Positions 1,386 through 64,000 of a DNA stretch of 64,000 nucleotides are shown in pieces. Below the pieces are notes generated by a model that had not been told where the DNA came from, did not search any database, and saw only the letters and a list, made by a program, of their open reading frames with translations. The stretch is from positions 34,811 through 98,810 of IMG/VR virus record IMGVR_UViG_3300027749_000065. The stretch is one strand, 5' to 3'. A program made the position numbers and the translations under genes. Position 1 is the first letter of the stretch; each line of letters begins with the position of its first letter. Source of the stretch: a virus.

Positions 1386-4211
1386 TTCTTTTGTAAAGGA
1401 TTCTGAATATTCACCGTCACCCATCACCTGATCTATAATGTTTTTCTTTTTATTCAACATATTATAGATTATTCTTTCTATTGTATTATCAAATATTGGG
1501 TAATAAACCATAACACCCTTTTTTTGACCATATCTGTATGCCCTATCTTCTGCTTGTGAATGTAGTGCCGGCACAAATGCCAAGTCATTCATAATTACAA
1601 CTTCTGCAGCAGTTAAAGTAATACCAACACCACCAGCAACAATATTAGAAATGAATATTTTTATCTTATCTTCATTTTGAAATTTATCAACACTATCCTG
1701 TCTTTTTTCTTTTGACATTCTACCATCTAATATTACTGAATTTTTTTTATACTTTTCATGTAACATATCCAATGTCATGGTAAAATTGGTAAAAACGATT
1801 ATTTTTTTATCTTGTTCTAACGCCTTGTCAATTAATTCACATGTATAGTCTATTTTTTCAAATGAAATTACTTGTCTAATTTTCATCAAACGATTAATTG
1901 TTACACTAATACTTTCATTATCCTTTTTTTCGTTAGATATTCTCATGAAGTTTTCTAATTCTTCCTCATAATAGGTACTTTTTAACTCCAAAAAAACTGG
2001 AGATATAATCTTCTCAGGTAAATCCAATATATCTGTCTTCATTCTTCTTAAAACAAGGTTTTTTGTACGTTCTCTTAGTTCATCTAAGTGACTAGCACCA
2101 CTAGTGTTCCATATTTTTTTACCATTTACAGTAAACTGAAATCCTTTACAATATCTTTTGACATAACTTTGCCAATTAAGGGTTAAAGGTGAATCAACGA
2201 TGCTCAAAAGATTAAAATAATTAATTGGTCTTGATGTCATTGGTGTACCTGTTAATAACCACACTTTTGGAATTTTATCTAAAATGTCATTTAATAGTTT
2301 AGTTCTATTTGCGGTGGTATTTGAAATCATATGTGCTTCATCCACAATAGCCAAATCAAATTTTTCATTTTCAATTAAATTTAATTCAGGATTTTCATTA
2401 TCTATTGCGTGGTAGTTTTTGATTATATCATAATTAATAATATAAAATTTAAATGTTGAACCCCATTTTCCACCTTCAACAATTAAAACACGTTCATCTG
2501 AATAAATCGAAATCTCTCTTTGCCAGTTAATCTTTAAAGATGCCGGACAAACAATCAATATTTTTTTAGCACCACTTTCTAAAGATGCGATCGTAGCAGA
2601 AGTTGTATTATGTGTAACAATCGCATGTTCTGCAACATATAATTTATCTGGAGAATCTACTGAAATACATGTACACTCACTTTCACCATATTTTTCAATA
2701 TTAGTGATATATCTACCCGTTGGATATTTTTTAGGTTCGTTATATAAATCTGATTTTCGTTTTAAACGAAATGGGTTCATACCTGGAGGTAATTTTATAT
2801 TTAATCTATATGATATTTTACATTCAACTCTAATTCCATTTTTTTTATAAAAACTTCTTCTTGACCTTTTTCTACAAATACCACCTAAAGTATGAACAAT
2901 TTCAGCAACATCATCACATAGTTGTTCAGACACAGTAGAAAATTCAGTTCCATTAAAATTACCATTTTTTGATTTCATACAATGTCCATCAGTATCCATC
3001 AATCCTTGTAATATTGATAGTCTATTTTCAATTGTTGTATATTTGTATATATCAGGTATAAATTTATTATGTGATCGAGTATGTTCCAAATGTAGATCGA
3101 ATAATGAATTTCCAACATTTATATAACCATTTCTTTTGTTATCTTGTGGTTTGTTTTCTTTTAATTTAAATAAACTAAATAAAGAATCATAATCATCTTT
3201 ATGAACAGAAAATTTTATATTTTTATTTTTAAATGACCCATCACCCAATCCAAGTCCTAATAAATAAGGATCAATCGGTAAAATATTTTTATTATTAAAT
3301 TCTATCGGTTTAACAATTGGTATTTGCCACTTATTATTTCCATTTGGGGATTTATAATATGTATTAATTTTGTAATCTCTATCTTCATTATAACCACTAC
3401 CTTTTATTAATATTTCCCCACCTTCAAACATTTGTTTAGTTGATAACACTAAAGATTTTTTCAATCTATCATTTTTTCTATTTTTACCATAATTTGGTGA
3501 TGAAACTGACCATAAATGTTCATCCCCACTTAAAATTGTGTATCCATCATTAAAAGTTATTTTATATGTTTCTTTTTTACCTTGAGGAAATACACCAATT
3601 ACATTACACGGTTTACCATTTGAACCAATTACCTTATCGCCAATAACAATTTCACCCATTTTTTTTACACCTAACTCATTGTAAATCAATGTATTATTGT
3701 CTAAAAATTTCCCCAAACCCATATCATCCGCCAATATGAATTTATCGTTTGCTAGTAATTTCTCAATTGCAACTTTTTGATGTTCTAATGGTGGTCTTTT
3801 ATTAAATCTTGAATAATCAATAATTCTATTTAATTTTTTTTCAGGTTGTACGATTGCTGCTTTAGGTAACCAAAATGCGTGGTTAACTTCATGTTCAAGA
3901 TATTTTCCCCATATATGATATGCCTTATCGCTTTCACATAATAATTTTTCACACCAAATATGTTCCAATTTATCTAATAATAAACGTTCATCCATTATTT
4001 TTTCAGCAAAAGAATCAACAATTTTTATGTGTTTTTTTGCCACTTTTGGTTCAACATTATGGTAGTTTAAAACATAATCAGATTGTGGGCGTGACAATTT
4101 AAAGTTCTTAACGGACGTGAACTTGTTCTTCAATTCTAATAGATGGTTATTTGCTCCACTATATTCTAATAATATTTCTCTTGCCCTAATTTCAGGAATT
4201 TTATTATTCAT
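1365..4211 (-). CDS. SNF2-type superfamily 2 helicase interrupted by an intein
   Basis: The 948-residue precursor is 581 residues without the intein. Helicase motifs are plain: Walker A DMGLGK (163-168) continuing as TT after the intein, DEAH box (624-627), motif III LLTGTPM (652-658), and the SNF2-type motif VI QAEDRAYRYGQ (886-896). Proteins of this kind translocate on duplex or forked DNA; in phages they take the place of UvsW-like helicases in fork remodelling and late replication. The intein lies exactly between Lys168 and Thr536, so the unspliced product cannot bind ATP. Transcription is divergent from the gp14-like gene across 48 bases. On its own strand, TATATTTT lies 3 bases before the ATG, like the early-type genes. 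The helicase assignment is secure; its exact role is inferred. Confidence 0.9.
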   Translation of the reverse strand: MNNKIPEIRAREILLEYSGANNHLLELKNKFTSVKNFKLSRPQSDYVLNYHNVEPKVAKKHIKIVDSFAEKIMDERLLLDKLEHIWCEKLLCESDKAYHIWGKYLEHEVNHAFWLPKAAIVQPEKKLNRIIDYSRFNKRPPLEHQKVAIEKLLANDKFILADDMGLGKFLDNNTLIYNELGVKKMGEIVIGDKVIGSNGKPCNVIGVFPQGKKETYKITFNDGYTILSGDEHLWSVSSPNYGKNRKNDRLKKSLVLSTKQMFEGGEILIKGSGYNEDRDYKINTYYKSPNGNNKWQIPIVKPIEFNNKNILPIDPYLLGLGLGDGSFKNKNIKFSVHKDDYDSLFSLFKLKENKPQDNKRNGYINVGNSLFDLHLEHTRSHNKFIPDIYKYTTIENRLSILQGLMDTDGHCMKSKNGNFNGTEFSTVSEQLCDDVAEIVHTLGGICRKRSRRSFYKKNGIRVECKISYRLNIKLPPGMNPFRLKRKSDLYNEPKKYPTGRYITNIEKYGESECTCISVDSPDKLYVAEHAIVTHNTTSATIASLESGAKKILIVCPASLKINWQREISIYSDERVLIVEGGKWGSTFKFYIINYDIIKNYHAIDNENPELNLIENEKFDLAIVDEAHMISNTTANRTKLLNDILDKIPKVWLLTGTPMTSRPINYFNLLSIVDSPLTLNWQSYVKRYCKGFQFTVNGKKIWNTSGASHLDELRERTKNLVLRRMKTDILDLPEKIISPVFLELKSTYYEEELENFMRISNEKKDNESISVTINRLMKIRQVISFEKIDYTCELIDKALEQDKKIIVFTNFTMTLDMLHEKYKKNSVILDGRMSKEKRQDSVDKFQNEDKIKIFISNIVAGGVGITLTAAEVVIMNDLAFVPALHSQAEDRAYRYGQKKGVMVYYPIFDNTIERIIYNMLNKKKNIIDQVMGDGEYSESFTKELLGEIL
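2607..3707 (-). other. Class 3-type LAGLIDADG intein in the SNF2 helicase
   Basis: A 367-residue intein spans residues 169-535 of the helicase gene. The first residue is Phe, which cannot make the usual N-terminal acyl shift. The three residues that define class 3 inteins are present: Trp234 in block B (EHLW), Cys515 at the block F nucleophile position (TCISV), and Thr533 before the terminal His-Asn (VTHN). The +1 residue is Thr. Two LAGLIDADG motifs (YLLGLGLGDG near 316-325, LQGLMDTDG near 401-409) indicate a full-length homing endonuclease domain. It is clearly related to the intein at the equivalent Walker A site of the gp41-like helicase. Boundaries follow from restoring GLGKTT. Confidence 0.88.
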
Positions 4212-4773: not shown

Positions 4774-6009
4774 ATGGGAACACCAAAAAGAAAAACGAAT
4801 ATTAAAATATATTCTGAAAAAATTTTAACGGACAGAAGACAAGAATTATTAGATAATATCACAAAAAATGATCCATATCTACCTGATAGTATATTGCACG
4901 ATGATTTAGATAGAGGTTTATTAGATTATGTTATTAAAAACTTTAAAGTGACATCTGATGGTAAACAAATACCTATTATAGAAAAAATATTAACAATACA
5001 AAGATGGGCAGAGTTTACAAATAATTGGGAATTTTCAGATGAGGATGGTATTGTTCAATTACCATTTGTGTCAATTATTAGAAAACCAGATGTACAATTT
5101 GGTACAAATCCATCTGTTCAAAGAACAATACCTGATAGGCATCAATTTTATTATTCTATTGTACAAACTTGGAATGGTAACGAGAAGGGTGCGGATGTTT
5201 ATAAAATACCACAACCTATACCTGTTGACATTACATATGATGTTACAATTATTTGTAATAAATTTAGAGATGTTAATAAATTTAATAAAATAGTTTTACA
5301 ACATTTTGCATCAAGACAAGACTATACAATTGTAAAAGGACATTACATTCCAATTGTTCTTGATAAAATTGAAGATAATACACCAATGCAGACTTTAGAT
5401 GGTCGTAGATTTTATGTCCAAACATATCAATTTACAATGTTAGGGTTTTTAATTGATAGTGAAGAATTTGAAGTTAAACCGGCAATTAGTAGAGCAATAC
5501 TAATGGATGAAATAGTTACTGAAAATAGACCAAGTAAAATTATAAAACAATCGGTTATAGATATTACAATCGTTTCTTTTAAAGGAAATGGTACTCAAAT
5601 AATATTCACTGTTGGTGAACCTATTGGTGTTTTGTTTAATGTTACAATAAATGGGTTAACTCAAAGGGATGGTGTGGATTATTTTCACATATCTAATTCT
5701 TCAAGAATATCATTCTCAGAACCACCACCATCAAATAGTACTATTGTAATAACATATTATAAAGGTAGAAATCCATCAATGACAAATACTAATGGAGTGA
5801 TCTTAAATTATAATTTAGAGTATTTTACTTATAATGGTTCTACATTAACATTTAATACAACTAACCCAATTGTTAGTGTTATTTTTTTAGAAATTAATGG
5901 TTTAATTGAAGTGAAATCAATTGATTATAATATTTCTGTTTTAGGTGTTATAGAATTATCACAACCACCTATTATTGGATCAGTTATTGGGGTGGGTTAT
6001 TTATATTAA
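4774..6009 (+). CDS. gp15-like tail completion protein with C-terminal beta repeats (putative)
   Basis: The N-terminal ~240 of 411 residues follow the pattern of T4 gp15, the tail terminator that caps sheath and tube. They run from LPFVSIIRKPD through QPIPVDITYDVTI, an amphipathic helix, and HYIPIVLDKIED to a closing strand FTMLGFLIDSEEF. About 150 extra residues follow and form two copies of a beta module. The first centres on INGLTQRDGVDY then RISFSEPPP (about 263-335); the second on INGLIEVKSIDY then VIELSQPP (about 348-411). This module type is common in fibre and baseplate proteins. The gene directly follows the gp14-like gene and precedes the sheath gene, as gene 15 precedes 18 in T4. 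Confidence 0.5.
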   Translation: MGTPKRKTNIKIYSEKILTDRRQELLDNITKNDPYLPDSILHDDLDRGLLDYVIKNFKVTSDGKQIPIIEKILTIQRWAEFTNNWEFSDEDGIVQLPFVSIIRKPDVQFGTNPSVQRTIPDRHQFYYSIVQTWNGNEKGADVYKIPQPIPVDITYDVTIICNKFRDVNKFNKIVLQHFASRQDYTIVKGHYIPIVLDKIEDNTPMQTLDGRRFYVQTYQFTMLGFLIDSEEFEVKPAISRAILMDEIVTENRPSKIIKQSVIDITIVSFKGNGTQIIFTVGEPIGVLFNVTINGLTQRDGVDYFHISNSSRISFSEPPPSNSTIVITYYKGRNPSMTNTNGVILNYNLEYFTYNGSTLTFNTTNPIVSVIFLEINGLIEVKSIDYNISVLGVIELSQPPIIGSVIGVGYLY

Positions 6010-6164
6010 TCATCACCATATAAATCTTTTTTTATTGGTTTACAATGTTGTTCTATCCATTTTTCAATGATTTTATGGATTTTTAAACCATTTTTTTCAC
6101 AATGACTTTTTAACATTGTATGATGTTTTTCACTTATCTTAACGTTTTTTTGTTTGTTTTCCAT
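6006..6164 (-). CDS. Small ribbon-helix-helix-like protein (52 aa)
   Basis: This short minus-strand frame encodes 52 residues. An N-terminal basic beta segment (KQKNVKISEKHH) is followed by two helices (TMLKSHCEKNG and HKIIEKWIEQHC), the layout of phage ribbon-helix-helix DNA-binding proteins. The C-terminus KKDLYGDD resembles the KKDLYGE end of the small protein at 63342-63587. The stop overlaps the 3' end of the gp15-like gene by 4 bases. On its own strand TATATTTT lies 2 bases before the ATG, an early-type arrangement. An 11-bp inverted repeat lies 20 bases upstream of its start and could be its operator. It may regulate itself and the sheath gene. DNA binding is inferred from layout only. 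Confidence 0.6.
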   Translation of the reverse strand: MENKQKNVKISEKHHTMLKSHCEKNGLKIHKIIEKWIEQHCKPIKKDLYGDD

Positions 6165-6183
6165 ATAAAATATATTAAAAGAT

Positions 6184-6211
6184 AAAATAAGATAGTTTAT
6201 TATCTTATTTT
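6184..6211. promoter_or_regulatory. Inverted repeat, candidate operator
   Basis: AAAATAAGATA (6184-6194) and TATCTTATTTT (6201-6211) form perfect 11-bp arms around GTTTAT. It lies in the divergent gap between the small RHH-like gene and the sheath gene, where a symmetric operator for an RHH dimer would be expected. A weak terminator is the alternative, but no coding sequence ends immediately before it on either strand. Confidence 0.45.
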
Positions 6212-6245
6212 TGGAATATAGTAAAATCTTTGATAAAAATAAAGA

Positions 6246-6254
6246 TATTTATTA
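6246..6254 (+). promoter_or_regulatory. Candidate late-type element TATTTATTA
   Basis: This element lies 37 bases before the sheath start, followed by an A-rich leader without a Shine-Dalgarno site. It has the same form as the element before the tape measure and the 15564 gene. Confidence 0.42.
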
Positions 6255-6291
6255 AATAAGAAATAAAAATTTTAAACAAACAAAAAAATCA

Positions 6292-9213
6292 ATGGCAAAT
6301 TCAAACAGAGTATTCGTTTCTCCGGGTGTGTACACATCAGAGCTCGATTTAACATTTGTGGCACAAAGTGTTGGTGTCACAACACTAGGTTTAGTGGGTG
6401 AAACTTTAAAAGGTCCTGCATTTGAACCTATCTTAATTTCATCTTGGGATGAATTTAGAACATATTTTGGAAGTTCTTCACCAGAAAAAGATGGTGTTGG
6501 AAATCCAAAATATGAATTACCTTACTTCGCCAAATCTTATCTAACAGAAGCGAATCAATTATTCGTTACAAGGATTCTTGGGTATACAGGGTATAAACCA
6601 GGTCTTTCTTATGGTATTAAATCACTAGGTGGTATTAATCTTGGTACATATAGTGGTTATACTAATGGACTTACAATGTCAGGTACTAGTACTACGATTA
6701 CCGCATCAACAATTTATAATGAATTATCAGGTAAAACAAATATAGGAAATGGTTTATCAGTTACAAATTATATTGTTAGTAAATATAGTGGAAATACATC
6801 AACAAATCATAATGACTGGTTCACAATAGGACTTATTCCGTCAGCGAATATTCCTAATAATGGAACTGAGGTTAAATCACCATTTACTGATGATTATAAT
6901 TTGAATAACAAAAACAATAAAGAATGGTATAATGTATTCTTCCATAAAACAGGTTCGACTGACTCAACAATAGATGGGGTATATTCATATTTATTTCAAT
7001 ATAATTCAGGTACATCAAGATTTGATGTGACAAGATTTATATATTCAGCATCGCTTAATACTGATTATGACAACATAATTATTGCTTGTTTAAGATCAAG
7101 AGGTCATTATGTGACAAATAAATTAAAATTAGAAGTTACTGGATTAACAAGTGTTAGTTTATCATCAGTTAATGATATAACAGTTAACCCATATCAAGAT
7201 TTCACTATTAGTGTTACGGGTTCAACTGGTGGAAATAAATCATTTACATGTAACATAGATAATACTTCGTCTAAATCTTTAACAAAAGTATTAGGTACAG
7301 AAGTATTTGATAGGGATTATTATGATCATCCATTATATGTTCATGAATATTATCCAAATTTATTGAAGAATGCTTATCAACAAGGTTATATTAGAGGTTT
7401 AAGTTTAACAATCGTAACAAACGATGAGCAAGATGGTTTTTTACCAAGTAATGGTGGTTATAAGGCGTTTGATACCCCAGCATCACCAATGGTTGTTTCT
7501 GAGGTAAGAGGTGGTAAAGTATTAGATTTATTCAATGTAATAACAATATCAGATGGTAATGATGCAAATGAACAAGTTAAAATTACGATCCAAAATATCA
7601 ATACAGATAATGGTGAATTTGATTTAATTGTTAGAGATTTTTATGATACTGATTCAAATCAAGTTGTACTTGAAAAATTCTCAAGATGTTCAATGAATCC
7701 TGACGCTCCGGGGTATATAGGTATAAAAGTTGGTACATCAGATGGTCAATATCCATTATTGTCAAAATATATAATGTTAAATTTAGAACCTAACGCACCT
7801 GTTGATTCAATTCCAGCTGGTTTCAGAGGATTTGTTAAAAATACAATATTTGGTACATCATATCTTGGTGAAACCATATATAAAACAAAATATTTTAATC
7901 CGGGTGATACAATTTATTATACCGCAGACGGTACTCCAAATATATCATCTGGAGATAAAATTAGAAATGTAACATTAGGTTTATCTTCATCTGATGGTTT
8001 TTCATATGATGCTGATTTATTTAAATATAAAGGGTCACATGCTGCAGGACAAACATTTGGTTTTCATTTATCTGTAAATGCGTCAGGTTTAACTGCAATA
8101 TATGGTGCAACAGGAACAACAGGAACAACATATAAAACAACCCCTTATGATTTAGAAGGTCAAACATCAGGATCAACAGGTGTTAATATGTTAACAAAAT
8201 TAGCAAATCGTAAATTCACATTTGCAGTGTGTGGTGGTTTTGATGGTTGGGATATATATAGAAGTACAAGAACATATGATGATGGTTATATTTTTGGTAA
8301 ATCAACATATACTAATAGTAATATAAACAATGGTGGTGTGTTTAACGTAACAAAAGGTAATTCTGATTATTATGCATATTATGATGGTATAAAAACTTTT
8401 GCAAATCCAGAATCAATTGATATTAACGTATTTGCAACACCTGGTATTAACTTCTATAATCATAGTTCTTTAACAAATCAAGCGATTGAAATGATTGAAG
8501 TAGATAGAGCTGATTCATTATATGTTATATCATCACCTAATGAAAGTACTGCGGACGGTGTAATTGGTGATATCATGGATCAAGAATATGATAGTAATTA
8601 CTCAGCAACATACTGGCCTTGGATTCAAATTAAAGATGTTGATAATGCAACTCAAATATATATCCCACCAACAGGTGAGGTATTAAGAAACATCGCATTA
8701 ACTGATAACATTGCTTATCCTTGGTACGCATCCGCTGGTTACTCAAGAGGACTTGTTAAATCAATTAAAGCAGTTAAGAAATTAACATCTGATGAAAGAG
8801 ATAATTTGTATAAAAATAGAATTAACCCAATTGCAACATTCTCCGATACTGGTACAATTATTTGGGGTAATAAAACACTTCAAGTTAGAGAATCAGCACT
8901 TGATAGAATTAACGTAAGAAGATTATTATTAAGAGCAAGAAAGTTAATCTCAGCTGTTTGTGTAAGATTATTATTTGAACAAAATGATGACCAAATTAGA
9001 CAAGAATTCTTGAGATTAGTTAATCCAATTCTTGAAGCAATTAAAAAAGAAAGAGGTTTAACTGATTTCCGTGTAACTGTTTCTAATGACCCTGCTGATA
9101 TTGATGCAAATACATTGAGAGGTAAAATATACATCAAACCAACACGTAGTTTGGAATTTATTGATGTAGAATTTATCATAACTCCAACAGGTGCTTCATT
9201 TGAAAACGTGTAA
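6292..9213 (+). CDS. gp18: Tail sheath protein (gp18-like)
   Basis: This is the contractile sheath subunit, 973 residues. The N-terminus (VSPGVYTSELDLTFVA near 9-24, then VGVTTLGLVGETLKGPA) is the classic sheath start. The C-terminal ~250 residues carry the conserved core: PWIQ-like strand, PPTGEVLRNIA, PWYASAGYSRG, IRVRRLLLRARKL-like helix, and a final LEFIDVEFIITPTG. Sheath subunits polymerise around the tube and contract to drive it through the envelope. The protein is about 300 residues longer than T4 gp18 (659), with the extra length in the middle, probably surface-exposed domains. It is followed by a strong terminator, then an endonuclease gene and the tube gene. Confidence 0.93.
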   Translation: MANSNRVFVSPGVYTSELDLTFVAQSVGVTTLGLVGETLKGPAFEPILISSWDEFRTYFGSSSPEKDGVGNPKYELPYFAKSYLTEANQLFVTRILGYTGYKPGLSYGIKSLGGINLGTYSGYTNGLTMSGTSTTITASTIYNELSGKTNIGNGLSVTNYIVSKYSGNTSTNHNDWFTIGLIPSANIPNNGTEVKSPFTDDYNLNNKNNKEWYNVFFHKTGSTDSTIDGVYSYLFQYNSGTSRFDVTRFIYSASLNTDYDNIIIACLRSRGHYVTNKLKLEVTGLTSVSLSSVNDITVNPYQDFTISVTGSTGGNKSFTCNIDNTSSKSLTKVLGTEVFDRDYYDHPLYVHEYYPNLLKNAYQQGYIRGLSLTIVTNDEQDGFLPSNGGYKAFDTPASPMVVSEVRGGKVLDLFNVITISDGNDANEQVKITIQNINTDNGEFDLIVRDFYDTDSNQVVLEKFSRCSMNPDAPGYIGIKVGTSDGQYPLLSKYIMLNLEPNAPVDSIPAGFRGFVKNTIFGTSYLGETIYKTKYFNPGDTIYYTADGTPNISSGDKIRNVTLGLSSSDGFSYDADLFKYKGSHAAGQTFGFHLSVNASGLTAIYGATGTTGTTYKTTPYDLEGQTSGSTGVNMLTKLANRKFTFAVCGGFDGWDIYRSTRTYDDGYIFGKSTYTNSNINNGGVFNVTKGNSDYYAYYDGIKTFANPESIDINVFATPGINFYNHSSLTNQAIEMIEVDRADSLYVISSPNESTADGVIGDIMDQEYDSNYSATYWPWIQIKDVDNATQIYIPPTGEVLRNIALTDNIAYPWYASAGYSRGLVKSIKAVKKLTSDERDNLYKNRINPIATFSDTGTIIWGNKTLQVRESALDRINVRRLLLRARKLISAVCVRLLFEQNDDQIRQEFLRLVNPILEAIKKERGLTDFRVTVSNDPADIDANTLRGKIYIKPTRSLEFIDVEFIITPTGASFENV

Positions 9214-60685: not shown

Positions 60686-61542
60686 TGGATTTAAAAGAAG
60701 TTTCAAAAGAAATAAAAGAATTATTAGAAAAAAGAAGACAAGAAATAGAATTAACCTTTATTGAAGATGAACATATCTATTTCATGAAAGATATTAATGG
60801 TGTTATTAGAAATGATTTTCCTTCCGTATCTAAGGTAATAAAATGTTTCCATGAACATTTTGATACTGAGGGTAAATCACTTGCCATGGCAAAAGGTGAT
60901 TTATATGAACAATCAAGATTATTGGCAGAATGGAAATCGGCTGGAGATTATTCAACGAATATGGGTAGTATGGTTCATTATGAATTAGAAAAAGATACAA
61001 TATCTCGTAATGGTGATTATAAAGAAGTAAGACAACCTATTTTTGAGTGTGATGAGTCACAAATAAGTAAAGGAGATTCAATGATTATCGCTGGTAAGAA
61101 ATTCCTCCATTTAATGGAGGAAAGAGGTGCGGTTTTACTTGATACTGAAATAGTATTGGGTGATCCTGAATTAGAATATACTGGTCAACCCGATAAAATG
61201 TGGTTGATAATGAATAAAGAAAAAAATGGATTCGGGTTTGTTACTACAGATTGGAAAACCAATAAAAAAAAGAATTTTATTGCTCAACCATATACAAAAA
61301 AAATGTACCCACCATTTAACTCATATGACAATACCGCATTAAGTCATTATTATATACAGTTACCATTATATGCGAAACTCCTGTTGAAGATGTTAAAAGG
61401 TACAAAATATGATAACTTAAAATTATTTGGATGTATTGTTGTATTGTTGAAAGATGATGCAACATTCGAAGAATATAGAGTACCTATGGACATAATAAAC
61501 ACAGTATTAACAATGGATGTAAAAAAATATTTAAACAAATGA
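60685..61542 (+). CDS. PD-(D/E)XK exonuclease, RecB/Cas4-like
   Basis: The 285 residues carry all the expected nuclease motifs: MGSMVHYELE (His98, Glu100), an acidic strand LLDTEIVLGD, YTGQPDKMW (Asp170), FVTTDWKT (Asp189, Lys191), and a Q-x-x-x-Y helix YIQLPLYAKLL (Gln225, Tyr229). This is the RecB-nuclease/lambda-exonuclease/Cas4 group. In phages such enzymes resect ends for recombination or degrade host DNA. The start overlaps the primase stop by 1 base, and the end overlaps the gp47-like gene by 4 bases. The genes primase, nuclease and gp47 are therefore tightly co-translated. No cysteine cluster for an iron-sulphur centre is visible. Confidence 0.82.
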   Translation: MDLKEVSKEIKELLEKRRQEIELTFIEDEHIYFMKDINGVIRNDFPSVSKVIKCFHEHFDTEGKSLAMAKGDLYEQSRLLAEWKSAGDYSTNMGSMVHYELEKDTISRNGDYKEVRQPIFECDESQISKGDSMIIAGKKFLHLMEERGAVLLDTEIVLGDPELEYTGQPDKMWLIMNKEKNGFGFVTTDWKTNKKKNFIAQPYTKKMYPPFNSYDNTALSHYYIQLPLYAKLLLKMLKGTKYDNLKLFGCIVVLLKDDATFEEYRVPMDIINTVLTMDVKKYLNK

Positions 61543-62204
61543 TAAAAAAAATCGTACACATTAGCGACCTTCATGTTCGCACATTCTTATTACATGAACA
61601 TTATCACAAACAATTAAATGAATTTTTATTTGGTTTAAGACCAAAATTAAAAGGTTTTGAATATGACGAAATAAGGATAGTTTTAACTGGTGATGTGGTA
61701 CACCAAAAGATTAATATTTCCAACGAACAAGTTGTATTAGTTACTTGGTTCTTTAATGAGTTAAGTAAAATTGGTAAACTTATTATCATACCTGGTAATC
61801 ATGATTTCTTGGAAAATAACATGAATAGATTGGATACCATAACTCCAATTGTAGAAACATTAAATAACCCTAATATAACCTATTATAGAGATGGTGGAAT
61901 GTATTCTGACGATAATGTTAATTGGGTGGTTTATTCGTTATTTCAACACAATAATAGACCTGAATTTGAGTTAGAAGAAGGGAAACTACATGTTGGGTTA
62001 TTTCATGGACCAATTCAAGGATTTACTACCGATACTGGTTATATTTTCGATGAAACTGCATATGATAAATTAAACTTTGTCGGGTGTGATATTGTTTTAT
62101 GTGGGGATATACATAAGAGAGATATAAAATATTTAGAAAGAGAAATTGAAATAGATGAAAAAGATATTGATGAATATTTAAAAAAAGGTTGGAAAAGAAT
62201 ATAA
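61539..62204 (+). CDS. gp47: gp47/SbcD-like nuclease subunit, N-terminal fragment
   Basis: The 221 residues hold most of a calcineurin-type phosphoesterase: HISDLH (7-12), LTGDVV (49-54), PGNHDF (85-90), LFHGPI (154-159) and CGDIHKR (188-194), all metal-binding motifs of Mre11/SbcD/T4 gp47. Together with gp46 it resects DNA ends for recombination. The frame stops soon after the last motif (KKGWKRI), before the capping strands. The missing part (a strand IPIIQIGSFIQQNFGE and beyond) is encoded at 63146-63373, after an inserted endonuclease gene. All catalytic residues are on this fragment, so the two pieces may assemble into a working enzyme. The SbcC/gp46 partner is not in the window. Confidence 0.88.
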   Translation: MIKKIVHISDLHVRTFLLHEHYHKQLNEFLFGLRPKLKGFEYDEIRIVLTGDVVHQKINISNEQVVLVTWFFNELSKIGKLIIIPGNHDFLENNMNRLDTITPIVETLNNPNITYYRDGGMYSDDNVNWVVYSLFQHNNRPEFELEEGKLHVGLFHGPIQGFTTDTGYIFDETAYDKLNFVGCDIVLCGDIHKRDIKYLEREIEIDEKDIDEYLKKGWKRI

Positions 62205-62229
62205 CACTAAAATTTTGTTGAATTCGCTA

Positions 62230-62238
62230 TATTTATAA
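62230..62238 (+). promoter_or_regulatory. Candidate late-type element TATTTATAA
   Basis: An exact TATTTATAATAAA lies 14 bases before the third endonuclease gene and directly after the gp47-like N-fragment, so it arrived with or was made by the insertion. Confidence 0.4.
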
Positions 62239-62252
62239 TAAACAACAAAAAT

Positions 62253-63167
62253 ATGGAGAAACAATGCATACAATGTAAAAAAAATTATCAACCAAAAAAT
62301 AAAACTCAAAAATTCTGTTCAGTTGAATGTCAATATAATTCATATAAAATTCAAAAAATAGAAAAAATAAAAAAAGAATGTATTAAATGTGGTAAAATTT
62401 ATTATAAAATCCCTAGTAAATCTGGTTCAACATATTGTTCTAGAGAATGTAAAGATTTACATCAAAAAGAAATTTACCTTAAAGAAGGTAATCCTATTTG
62501 GGGTAGAAAATACACAATAATTGAAAAAAAAATTAAATCAGACACAATTAAAGAATTGTGGAAATCTGAAGAATTTAGAGAATCCGTTAAAAACGGACAA
62601 GAAATTTTTTTAAAAAAAAATGGTTATTGGTTTGGTACTGATGATGTAAGTAAAGAAAAAAGAAAAAAAACTTTAATTAATCGGTATGGTATTGAACATA
62701 ATTGGTGCGGAAAATATGGTGAAAGAATTTGTGATAAAACAACCTTTGAAAAATATGGAAAGACATCTGTAGATATGTTAATTGAATATACAAGACATTA
62801 CAATAAAAAAACAGATATTGAAAATATTTTTGAAGAATTTTTAAAAGATTTAAAAATACCATTTCAAGATAAATTTAAAATTTATAATAAAGATAAAATT
62901 GATTTTTGGTATAAAGAGTATGATTTTTTAATTCTAAATACTAATATTTTAATTGAGGTAGATGGTGATTATTGGCATGGTAATGAAAAAATTTTCCAAG
63001 ACTTAACTGATTTTCAAAAATCAGTTAAAATTAATGATAAAATAAAAGAAAATTTCGCGACTTCTAATGGTTATGAAATTATAAGATTTTGGGGTTCAGA
63101 CATTAAAAAAAATAAAACTGAAATAAAAGAAAAATTAAAAGAATTATGGGAAAAATTAAATTATTAA
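62253..63167 (+). CDS. Free-standing Vsr-type (EDxHD) homing endonuclease splitting gp47
   Basis: The 304 residues begin with two zinc ribbons (CIQCKKNY and FCSVEC; CIKCGKIY and YCSRECK, within 1-75). A basic helical region with NRYGIEHNW and FEKYGKTS motifs follows. The C-terminal Vsr-like nuclease has KIDFW, LIEVDGDYWHGN (E235, D237, D239, H242) and IIRFWGSDI. It resembles the endonuclease at 11711 (shared EVDGD and IRYW/IRFW-xx-DI) and more loosely that at 9333. It sits inside the gp47 gene and its 3' end overlaps the gp47 C-fragment by 22 bases. Endonucleases of this EDxHD type are the ones reported with split inteins in fractured phage genes. No intein sequence flanks this copy. Confidence 0.88.
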   Translation: MEKQCIQCKKNYQPKNKTQKFCSVECQYNSYKIQKIEKIKKECIKCGKIYYKIPSKSGSTYCSRECKDLHQKEIYLKEGNPIWGRKYTIIEKKIKSDTIKELWKSEEFRESVKNGQEIFLKKNGYWFGTDDVSKEKRKKTLINRYGIEHNWCGKYGERICDKTTFEKYGKTSVDMLIEYTRHYNKKTDIENIFEEFLKDLKIPFQDKFKIYNKDKIDFWYKEYDFLILNTNILIEVDGDYWHGNEKIFQDLTDFQKSVKINDKIKENFATSNGYEIIRFWGSDIKKNKTEIKEKLKELWEKLNY

Positions 63168-63373
63168 AAAAAATACCTATTATCCAAATTGGTTCATTCA
63201 TACAGCAGAATTTTGGGGAAACAGTCAACCATCATGGTTATGGATTATATGATGTTGAAAGTAATGAATATACATTTCATGATGTTATAAATGAAAGTCC
63301 TTACTTACATTTTAAAATAAATGACATAAAAGATATAGAAAATGGAGAAGAAATATTACTTAACCTTGGATAA
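63146..63373 (+). CDS. gp47/SbcD-like nuclease subunit, C-terminal fragment
   Basis: The 75 residues continue the gp47 fold: IPIIQIGSFIQQNFGE (10-25) is the conserved strand-plus-helix that follows the GDIH motif in Mre11/SbcD proteins (P-x-x-Y-x-G-S-xx-x-xx-F-G-E), then GYGLYDVESNEYTF and an acidic C-terminus. The fragment begins at an ATG inside the 3' end of the endonuclease gene, in another frame, so it could be translated as its own polypeptide. Its 3' end overlaps the next gene by 32 bases. It has no catalytic residues and must associate with the upstream fragment to matter. Confidence 0.8.
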   Translation: MGKIKLLKKIPIIQIGSFIQQNFGETVNHHGYGLYDVESNEYTFHDVINESPYLHFKINDIKDIENGEEILLNLG

Positions 63374-63587
63374 TGAATTTATTCAATATTGTAAATTAAA
63401 TAATATTGAAGATGTTGAAGGTAAAGCAAATGAAATATTTAAACAAGGTTTTACGATATTGAAATATGGTGTAACACCAAATATTCCAATACAAAAAAAA
63501 CCTGAACCACCACCAACTAAGATGATAAGAGAAGGTGAGAAACCAGTGGTAATAGTAACACCAAAAAAAGATCTTTATGGTGAATAA
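63342..63587 (+). CDS. Small hypothetical protein ending KKDLYGE (81 aa)
   Basis: I do not recognise the family. The first half is a strand and helix pair (KKYYLTLDNEFIQYCKLNN, then KANEIFKQGFTILKYG), which resembles a small ribbon-helix-helix-like or dimerisation unit. The second half is a proline-rich extended tail (IPIQKKPEPPPTK near 49-61) ending VIVTPKKDLYGE. The last residues match the end of the 52-residue RHH-like protein at 6006-6164 (KKDLYGDD), hinting at a shared docking peptide. It starts inside the gp47 C-fragment gene. No function can be assigned. Confidence 0.6.
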   Translation: MEKKYYLTLDNEFIQYCKLNNIEDVEGKANEIFKQGFTILKYGVTPNIPIQKKPEPPPTKMIREGEKPVVIVTPKKDLYGE

Positions 63588-63685: not shown

Positions 63686-64000
63686 ATGAATAAATATTGT
63701 ATTAAATGCGAAACAAATAAAGATATTAATGATTTTGGTAATAATAAAAATAATAAAGATAAACATAATCTTTATTGTAAATTATGTGAAAAAAATAGAG
63801 CGAAAGAATATCGTTTAAATAACCCTGATAAACAAAAAGAAAGTAGTGAAAAATGGAGAAAAAAAAATCCGGAAAAACAAAAAGTATTTTATAAAAAATA
63901 TATAGAAAAAAAACCGGAAATGCATATTACTCAAAGAATTAAAAAATACAGAGAAAGTGAAGTTTATAGAGAAAATGAAAAAAAAAGTAGGAAAGAATAT
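63686..64000 (+). CDS. HNH-type homing endonuclease-like protein (3' end outside window)
   Basis: The first 105 residues are visible and run off the right edge. They begin with a zinc ribbon (YCIKCETNK at 4-12, YCKLCEKNRAKEYRL near 32-46). Repeats of W/F-x-K-KNPEK type follow (SEKWRKKNPEK, then KKYIEKKPEMH), and then a basic helix RIKKYRESEVYRE. This is the familiar N-terminal region of phage HNH endonucleases with a C-x-x-C...C-x-x-C finger; the catalytic HNH would lie beyond the window. It lies just after the fractured gp47 gene and small protein, in the place where gp46 would be expected. Confidence 0.55.
   Translation, partial: MNKYCIKCETNKDINDFGNNKNNKDKHNLYCKLCEKNRAKEYRLNNPDKQKESSEKWRKKNPEKQKVFYKKYIEKKPEMHITQRIKKYRESEVYRENEKKSRKEY

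Follow-up and report, generated by a model that had tools for sequence, protein, structure and literature searches.

Split genes described in PMC2988022, a review of T4 mobile elements, include nrdA of phage Aeh1, the T4 topoisomerase gene (with mobA) and gene 43 of Aeromonas phages, whose DNA polymerase is encoded as 43A and 43B, and activity of the split products has been demonstrated for nrdA and gene 43. The locus analysed here had been put forward in a preliminary description as a second genes-in-pieces case, a count that the topoisomerase and polymerase splits already overturn. It lies in a 64,000-nucleotide stretch of virus DNA (the window), in which gp47, a gene for an Mre11/SbcD-type nuclease, is interrupted by a complete endonuclease gene. 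As in the arrangement nrdA-a / mobE / nrdA-b of Aeh1 (Friedrich 2007, summarized in PMC2988022), a free-standing homing endonuclease gene appears to divide an essential gene into two cistrons with neither an intron nor an intein, and extra tails are found at the new ends. Unlike Aeh1 nrdA, whose endonuclease (mobE) is of HNH type, the split gene is of Mre11 type and the endonucleases are Vsr-like or TnsA-like; also unlike that case, the split and its tails recur in five lineages, the histories of tail and endonuclease are apparently separate, and reassembly is inferred from sequence.

The locus resembles T4 topoisomerase genes 39/60 with mobA in that T4-type replication genes are split in association with mobile endonucleases or intervening sequence, with the known products assembling, but different genes and break sites are involved and no conserved tail pair is described in the PMC2988022 account of 39/60. 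A Vsr-like gene between the halves of a phage gene also recalls the fractured genes in which split inteins accompany an endonuclease of EDxHD/Vsr-like type (Dassa 2009, via PMC12350094); unlike those genes, the gp47 ends carry no intein sequences or splicing motifs. A literature search of incomplete coverage did not find a split gp47/SbcD.

Organization of the split gp47 locus

A virus contig of 98,810 bases contains the window as its final 64 kb, and the sequence stops at position 64000. Three open frames, arranged as originally described, make up the split gene and its insert (all on the + strand):

61539-62204, +, gp47 N-fragment open reading frame, 221 aa
61539..62120, +, body of the N-fragment, residues 1-194 up to ...GDIHKR, with the phosphoesterase motifs
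62121..62204, +, tail of the N-fragment, DIKYLEREIEIDEKDIDEYLKKGWKRI plus stop, without counterpart in any intact relative
62228..62240, +, putative AT-rich element TATATTTATAATA, preceding the endonuclease gene
62253..63167, +, endonuclease gene, 304 aa, homing-type
63146-63373, +, gp47 C-fragment open reading frame, 75 aa, containing IPIIQIGSFIQQNFGE
63146..63172, +, head of the C-fragment, MGKIKLLKK, a basic extra strand
63173..63373, +, body of the C-fragment, IPIIQIGSFIQQNFGE..., predicted last core strands of the phosphoesterase fold

The N-fragment matches Metallophos (PF00149, Pfam E 1e-10) and aligns to positions 27-220 of phrog_100 SbcD, in agreement with the phosphoesterase motifs noted earlier, and its conserved residues are kept; the C-fragment alone gives a weak match to phrog_100 227-279 (E 0.085). 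The ATG of the C-fragment overlaps the end of the endonuclease gene by 22 nt, again as first reported. A primase-like gene (59726) and an exonuclease-family gene (60685) precede the split gp47, in the same gene order as in the closest intact relative, L001, whose identity to the window is 91% in the N-part and 89% in the C-part. There a single frame of 268 residues encodes gp47, and two small genes separate it from gp46. The gp46/SbcC gene also lies downstream of gp47 in L194 and in the phage LR756508.1; it was not found in the window's contig, which ends before the expected place.

Several neighbouring genes differ between relatives. The small gene after gp47 is short in the window (63342-63587, 81 aa) and is expanded into long KEVPVEKIVEVIKEVP-type repeats in L004 and L193. 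A second endonuclease-like gene (63686-64000; phrog_1035 endonuclease VII, phrog_2340), truncated by the contig end, is an insertion between this small gene and the next gene and is missing from L001. Conversely, L001 has a GIY-YIG-like gene upstream of the primase gene (2118-2966, minus strand) that the window lacks at that place.

Position of the break and coverage of the fold

We gathered 147 distinct intact gp47 DNA sequences in total. In 80 of the 80 relatives from the first search, GDIHxR (or GDTHKR) leads straight into a short hairpin and (I/V)GS. An AlphaFold2 model of the intact L001 protein, built on 76 relatives (pLDDT 90.5), places strands at 194-198 and 204-208 on either side of the turn LPNGG. 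Its best PDB matches were Mre11 proteins of several organisms, and phmmer aligned the L001 sequence weakly to Thermotoga Mre11. On this model, the insertion falls in a beta-hairpin turn that belongs to the phosphoesterase fold. The C-fragment is therefore predicted to provide the last core strands of that fold, and the earlier placement of the insertion between catalytic and capping parts is wrong. The proteins of this group share with Mre11/SbcD (PDB 4tug, 3av0, 2q8u; phrog_100) the fold and the metal-site motifs and, in relatives, a downstream gp46/SbcC gene; unlike Mre11/SbcD, they comprise only about 260-270 aa, a phosphoesterase domain nearly without a capping domain, and in five lineages they are encoded as two chains.

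A gp47 profile of 259 positions, made from 76 intact proteins, found exactly two matches in the window's contig, at 1-193 (E 1e-89) and 189-258 (E 1e-27). Exactly two matches were likewise found in each of four other records with a split gene (L083, L165, L194 and LR756508.1). The N-parts in split records start at profile position 1 (or 2) and end at 191-194, and the C-parts span 188-189 to 258-259 (196-245 in LR756508.1). Loss of residues at the junction was rejected as a possibility, since the two fragments jointly cover the profile, and the comparison with uninterrupted gp47 called for in the preliminary description thus revealed no essential residues missing at the break. Nor did the profile detect an intact second gp47 in the window's 98.8-kb contig (a fragment of its genome), L083, L165, L194 or the whole of LR756508.1. 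In the last of these, a second Metallophos protein (446780-447334) was considered as an extra gp47 and rejected, as it did not match the profile. The closest empty sites, in L166 and L174, read RQ(I/T)IY-LDKT-PIIQVGS, and the split L165 reads RQIIY-TES... and ...KK-IPIIQIGS.

The same split in four further lineages

Queries with the C-fragment, with the junction in joined form and with the tail recovered this arrangement, broken at the identical position, in L083 (several contigs) and L165 as well as in the group of three contigs L193, L194 and L290. A fifth lineage with this split came from the phage collection, the 484-kb phage LR756508.1 (L417), whose gp47 N-fragment is ~33% identical to that of the window. 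The earlier proposal that a homing endonuclease splits gp47 with both halves kept and with no intron or intein is supported, and these four additional lineages strengthen it. No split gp47 with the head-plus-IP pattern was seen in GTDB genomes among the matches listed.

In LR756508.1, an endonuclease gene comes after the gp47 N-fragment, and the frame behind it (5596-8175) joins the gp47 C-part to gp46 (phrog_77 SbcC, E 7e-58), so that the insertion split a gp47-gp46 fusion into gp47N and gp47C-gp46. Uninterrupted gp47-gp46 fusions are present in Mel-JY01 and LR756501.1. The intact fusion in the latter, a 735-kb phage record (L419; 2501-5587), was listed as open only when TAG was read as Gln, which suggests stop-codon reassignment or an altered table used for the ORF listing. 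As a separate observation, a cysteine-synthase-like gene lies directly 3′ of the split gp47 in L165 (7369-8256).

Endonuclease genes in the insertion slot

The window's endonuclease has a Cys-rich (zinc-ribbon-like) N-terminal region and a C-terminal Vsr-like/DUF559 domain (PF04480, E 2e-4, a match above the cut-off; MTES_1575, weak; phrog_559 and phrog_9084). The endonuclease in the same slot of L165 is 60% identical to it, with a stronger match to PF04480 (1.7e-6) and a weak one to Vsr itself (0.04). The assignment to a Vsr-type enzyme made at the outset is tentative, the C-terminal domain being DUF559/Vsr-like. No solved relative of the Vsr-like endonuclease was found by sequence search, and the annotated phage collection yielded no relatives of the window's enzyme. 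The genes in L083, L193 and LR756508.1 instead match the TnsA-like PD-(D/E)XK domain PF08722 (E 1e-4, 0.012 and 6e-6, respectively). The Cys-rich N-terminal regions are homologous across the two endonuclease types (36% identity over ~106 residues between the window and L083, E 6e-9); taken together with the domain matches, this means that one slot has been occupied by two nuclease types. An endonuclease akin to the TnsA-like type, carrying NUMOD3, was also noted in Bacillus phage Moonbeam (L420; 2108-2869), where it overlaps the start of the RNaseH gene by a few bases.

Exact copies of TATATTTATAATA occur only at 62228 and 63667, each just before an inserted endonuclease gene, and on this strand the T4 late box TATAAATA is contained in the element as its reverse complement. 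With one mismatch allowed there are 10 copies vs 4.0 expected; the late-type element reported previously is a weak candidate.

Conserved tails and heads at the new ends

The window's N-fragment continues for 27 residues after GDIHKR, a tail that the preliminary description had not mentioned. Its first ~5 residues stand in for the first hairpin strand, and the remainder (an acidic strand, a helix and GW) is extra. Each split N-fragment has such an acidic C-terminal tail ending in ...Y...GW, and each C-fragment has a short basic head. The tails following GDIHKR are DIKYLEREIEIDEKDIDEYLKKGWKRI in the window, AIVNLETEIEVDEKDVENYLKNGWEKVI in L083, QIIYTESIIEIDEELFETYSKKGWEKI in L165, QIIYTESTIEIDEEFLDEYIKKGWENVI in L193 and QKVSEYEVEEMVVEEDELEKYLNSGWKLDENLDDY in LR756508.1. 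The heads MGKIKLLKK, MGKKIKLVKK, MGRIKIKKK and MGKIKLKKQ (window, L083, L165 and L193, respectively) precede IPIIQIGS, and that of LR756508.1 is MSDDKYRVKRVWPEAVFSGS. The overlap of this head type with the endonuclease end is shared by L083, L165 and L193, and head conservation is partly imposed because the head codons overlap the endonuclease frame. The added ends amount to 27-35 residues for the tail and ~9-10 for the head; in the window, L083, L165 and L193, the first 14 tail residues have a net charge of -3 to -5 and the heads one of +4 to +5.

Synonymous differences exceed nonsynonymous ones in the tail (pS > pN) in all six pairs, and Fisher tests on two independent pairs gave p = 0.014 (22 codons) and 4e-4 (27 codons). 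Judged by these substitutions, the tail is under purifying selection. On a matrix built from the other four tails, that of LR756508.1 scored 38, compared with 26 for the best other C-terminus among 1378, and shuffled sequences reached this score with P = 2.5e-4. The tail had no significant Pfam match as a known domain, and three tails touch phrog_1175 at E 0.016-0.08 only. A hairpin-forming RNA lies 3′ of the tail in L083 and L193.

The N- and C-fragments of L165 are in one frame, and we read through them, with stops as S or G, for a tethered fold; the model was limited to intact rows because joint alignment with the fragment rows scattered the tails. Both predicted strands of the hairpin exceed those of the intact protein in length, at 188-197 (QIIYTESIIE) and 538-547 (KIKKKIPIIQ), with a helix at 200-209 on the tail side after the strand. 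Confidence in the two added ends is low (the pLDDT falls from 75 to 58-54 in the tail and is 64 in the head), the linker is artificial and the output holds no contacts. We infer from the longer strands, which would agree with it, that the acidic strand may pair with the basic one.

Mobility, ancestry and constraint

L083 and the empty-site phage L150 align across 3.4 kb as far as the break and again beyond it. Within gp47, 8-codon bins more than ~48 codons upstream had 100% nucleotide identity in all but one case, whereas bins nearer the break had 58-91%. Downstream of the break, L083 and L085 were 75% identical over the first 8 codons and 91-100% beyond, and the window and L001 showed a weaker version of the same flank-limited divergence. 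As a sequence pattern, this indicates homing with co-conversion of the flanks, and the inserted gene, a predicted endonuclease, looks mobile.

For the gp47 body, counts of informative nucleotide sites in four lineages (54:18:10) favoured the grouping of the window with L083 and of L165 with L193. The tail gave the same grouping (9:2:1, or 5:2:1 without the first five codons), whereas the endonuclease N-terminus favoured the window with L165 and L083 with L193 (21:7:8). On these few informative sites, the tail appears to share its history with gp47 and not with the endonuclease, the reverse of the direction expected if it had travelled only with its endonuclease.

Between the window and L001, the N-part has a dN/dS of about 0.08 and the C-part one of 0.13; for the other split alleles the ratio is broadly as in intact-intact pairs at similar distance, with synonymous sites near saturation. 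Split alleles keep the conserved motif residues, including all conserved Asp/His/Asn positions in the window's N-fragment. As exceptions, Gln195 (after GDIHKR) is missing from the window and from L083, and L165 differs at several conserved positions; the intact relative L100 also lacks Gln after GDIHKR.

Discussion

From the sequence comparisons we consider it likely that gp47 is a recurrent genes-in-pieces Mre11-type nuclease, whose separately made halves reassemble via the conserved tails and work with gp46; the enzyme is probably active as two chains. On this reading, the gene of a free-standing homing endonuclease would have entered the beta-hairpin tip of gp47 and left two cistrons. The N- and C-chains would be translated separately, the latter probably by coupling at the overlap of its ATG with the end of the endonuclease gene. 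The broken hairpin would then re-form with longer strands, through pairing of the N-chain's acidic tail with the C-chain's basic head; the helix of the tail, with its terminal GW, would cap it, and a single nuclease working with gp46 would be rebuilt from two chains. The tails would thus make the insertion tolerable. In Aeh1 NrdA, tails derived from mobE are said to be essential, a finding attributed to Crona et al. 2011. More tentatively, and with somewhat less confidence than would let us favour it, the acidic strand and helix-GW with its basic partner strand could be an old docking module that lets different homing endonucleases hold the same hairpin in distant phages while the enzyme stays intact, and that in the 484-kb phage docks the gp47 N-chain onto the gp47C-gp46 fusion.

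The halves could also cooperate while tail and head are leftovers of insertion, read-through peptides that are neutral or kept for endonuclease expression. The tail is short, the head codons share the endonuclease reading frame and an RNA hairpin lies behind the tail in L083 and L193, all of which fit this reading, but we regard it as unlikely: tail changes are coding-like and under purifying selection, the tail persists alongside two distinct endonucleases, also in a phage at ~33% gp47 identity, and its sites tend to track gp47 and not the endonuclease. A harsher possibility is that the endonuclease destroyed gp47 and that another nuclease substitutes for it. Decay could be unseen if L083-type insertions are recent, and the loss of Gln195 in two alleles and the several L165 changes would fit a dead gene. 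This seems improbable because both frames are open in five of five lineages and dN/dS is low; moreover, no second gp47 was found in the records searched, and the tails of a dead enzyme would lack conservation.

Two further readings would restore a single chain. Many phage endonuclease genes reside in introns (PMC12350094, PMC10448857), and the insert might be an unrecognised self-splicing intron, with gp47 made in one piece. It had no Rfam match at strict or relaxed thresholds, however, and in four lineages the endonuclease gene fills the insert, with only 44-52 nt ahead of it and a frame overlap behind; the coding-like changes in the tail also speak against splicing, which we judge very unlikely. 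That the ends form a minimal split intein ligating the halves is extremely improbable, even though fractured genes with split inteins around a Vsr-like endonuclease are known (Dassa 2009, via PMC12350094). In four lineages the tail (27-28 residues) and head (9-10) fall far short of intein length, GDIHKR is followed by D, A or Q, there is no C-terminal HN and the C-part does not start with Cys, Ser or Thr; the original statement that no intein motifs flank the insertion extends to all four, whose new ends have neither nucleophile nor HN.

If the halves do reassemble as two chains through their tails, genes-in-pieces would come to include a recombination nuclease, a type of enzyme that processes the breaks made by homing endonucleases. 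What had been a one-phage curiosity, the tails of Aeh1, would become a recurring case open to comparison, with apparently separate histories of tail and endonuclease, and these phages would offer biochemistry natural split Mre11 enzymes together with candidate docking tails.
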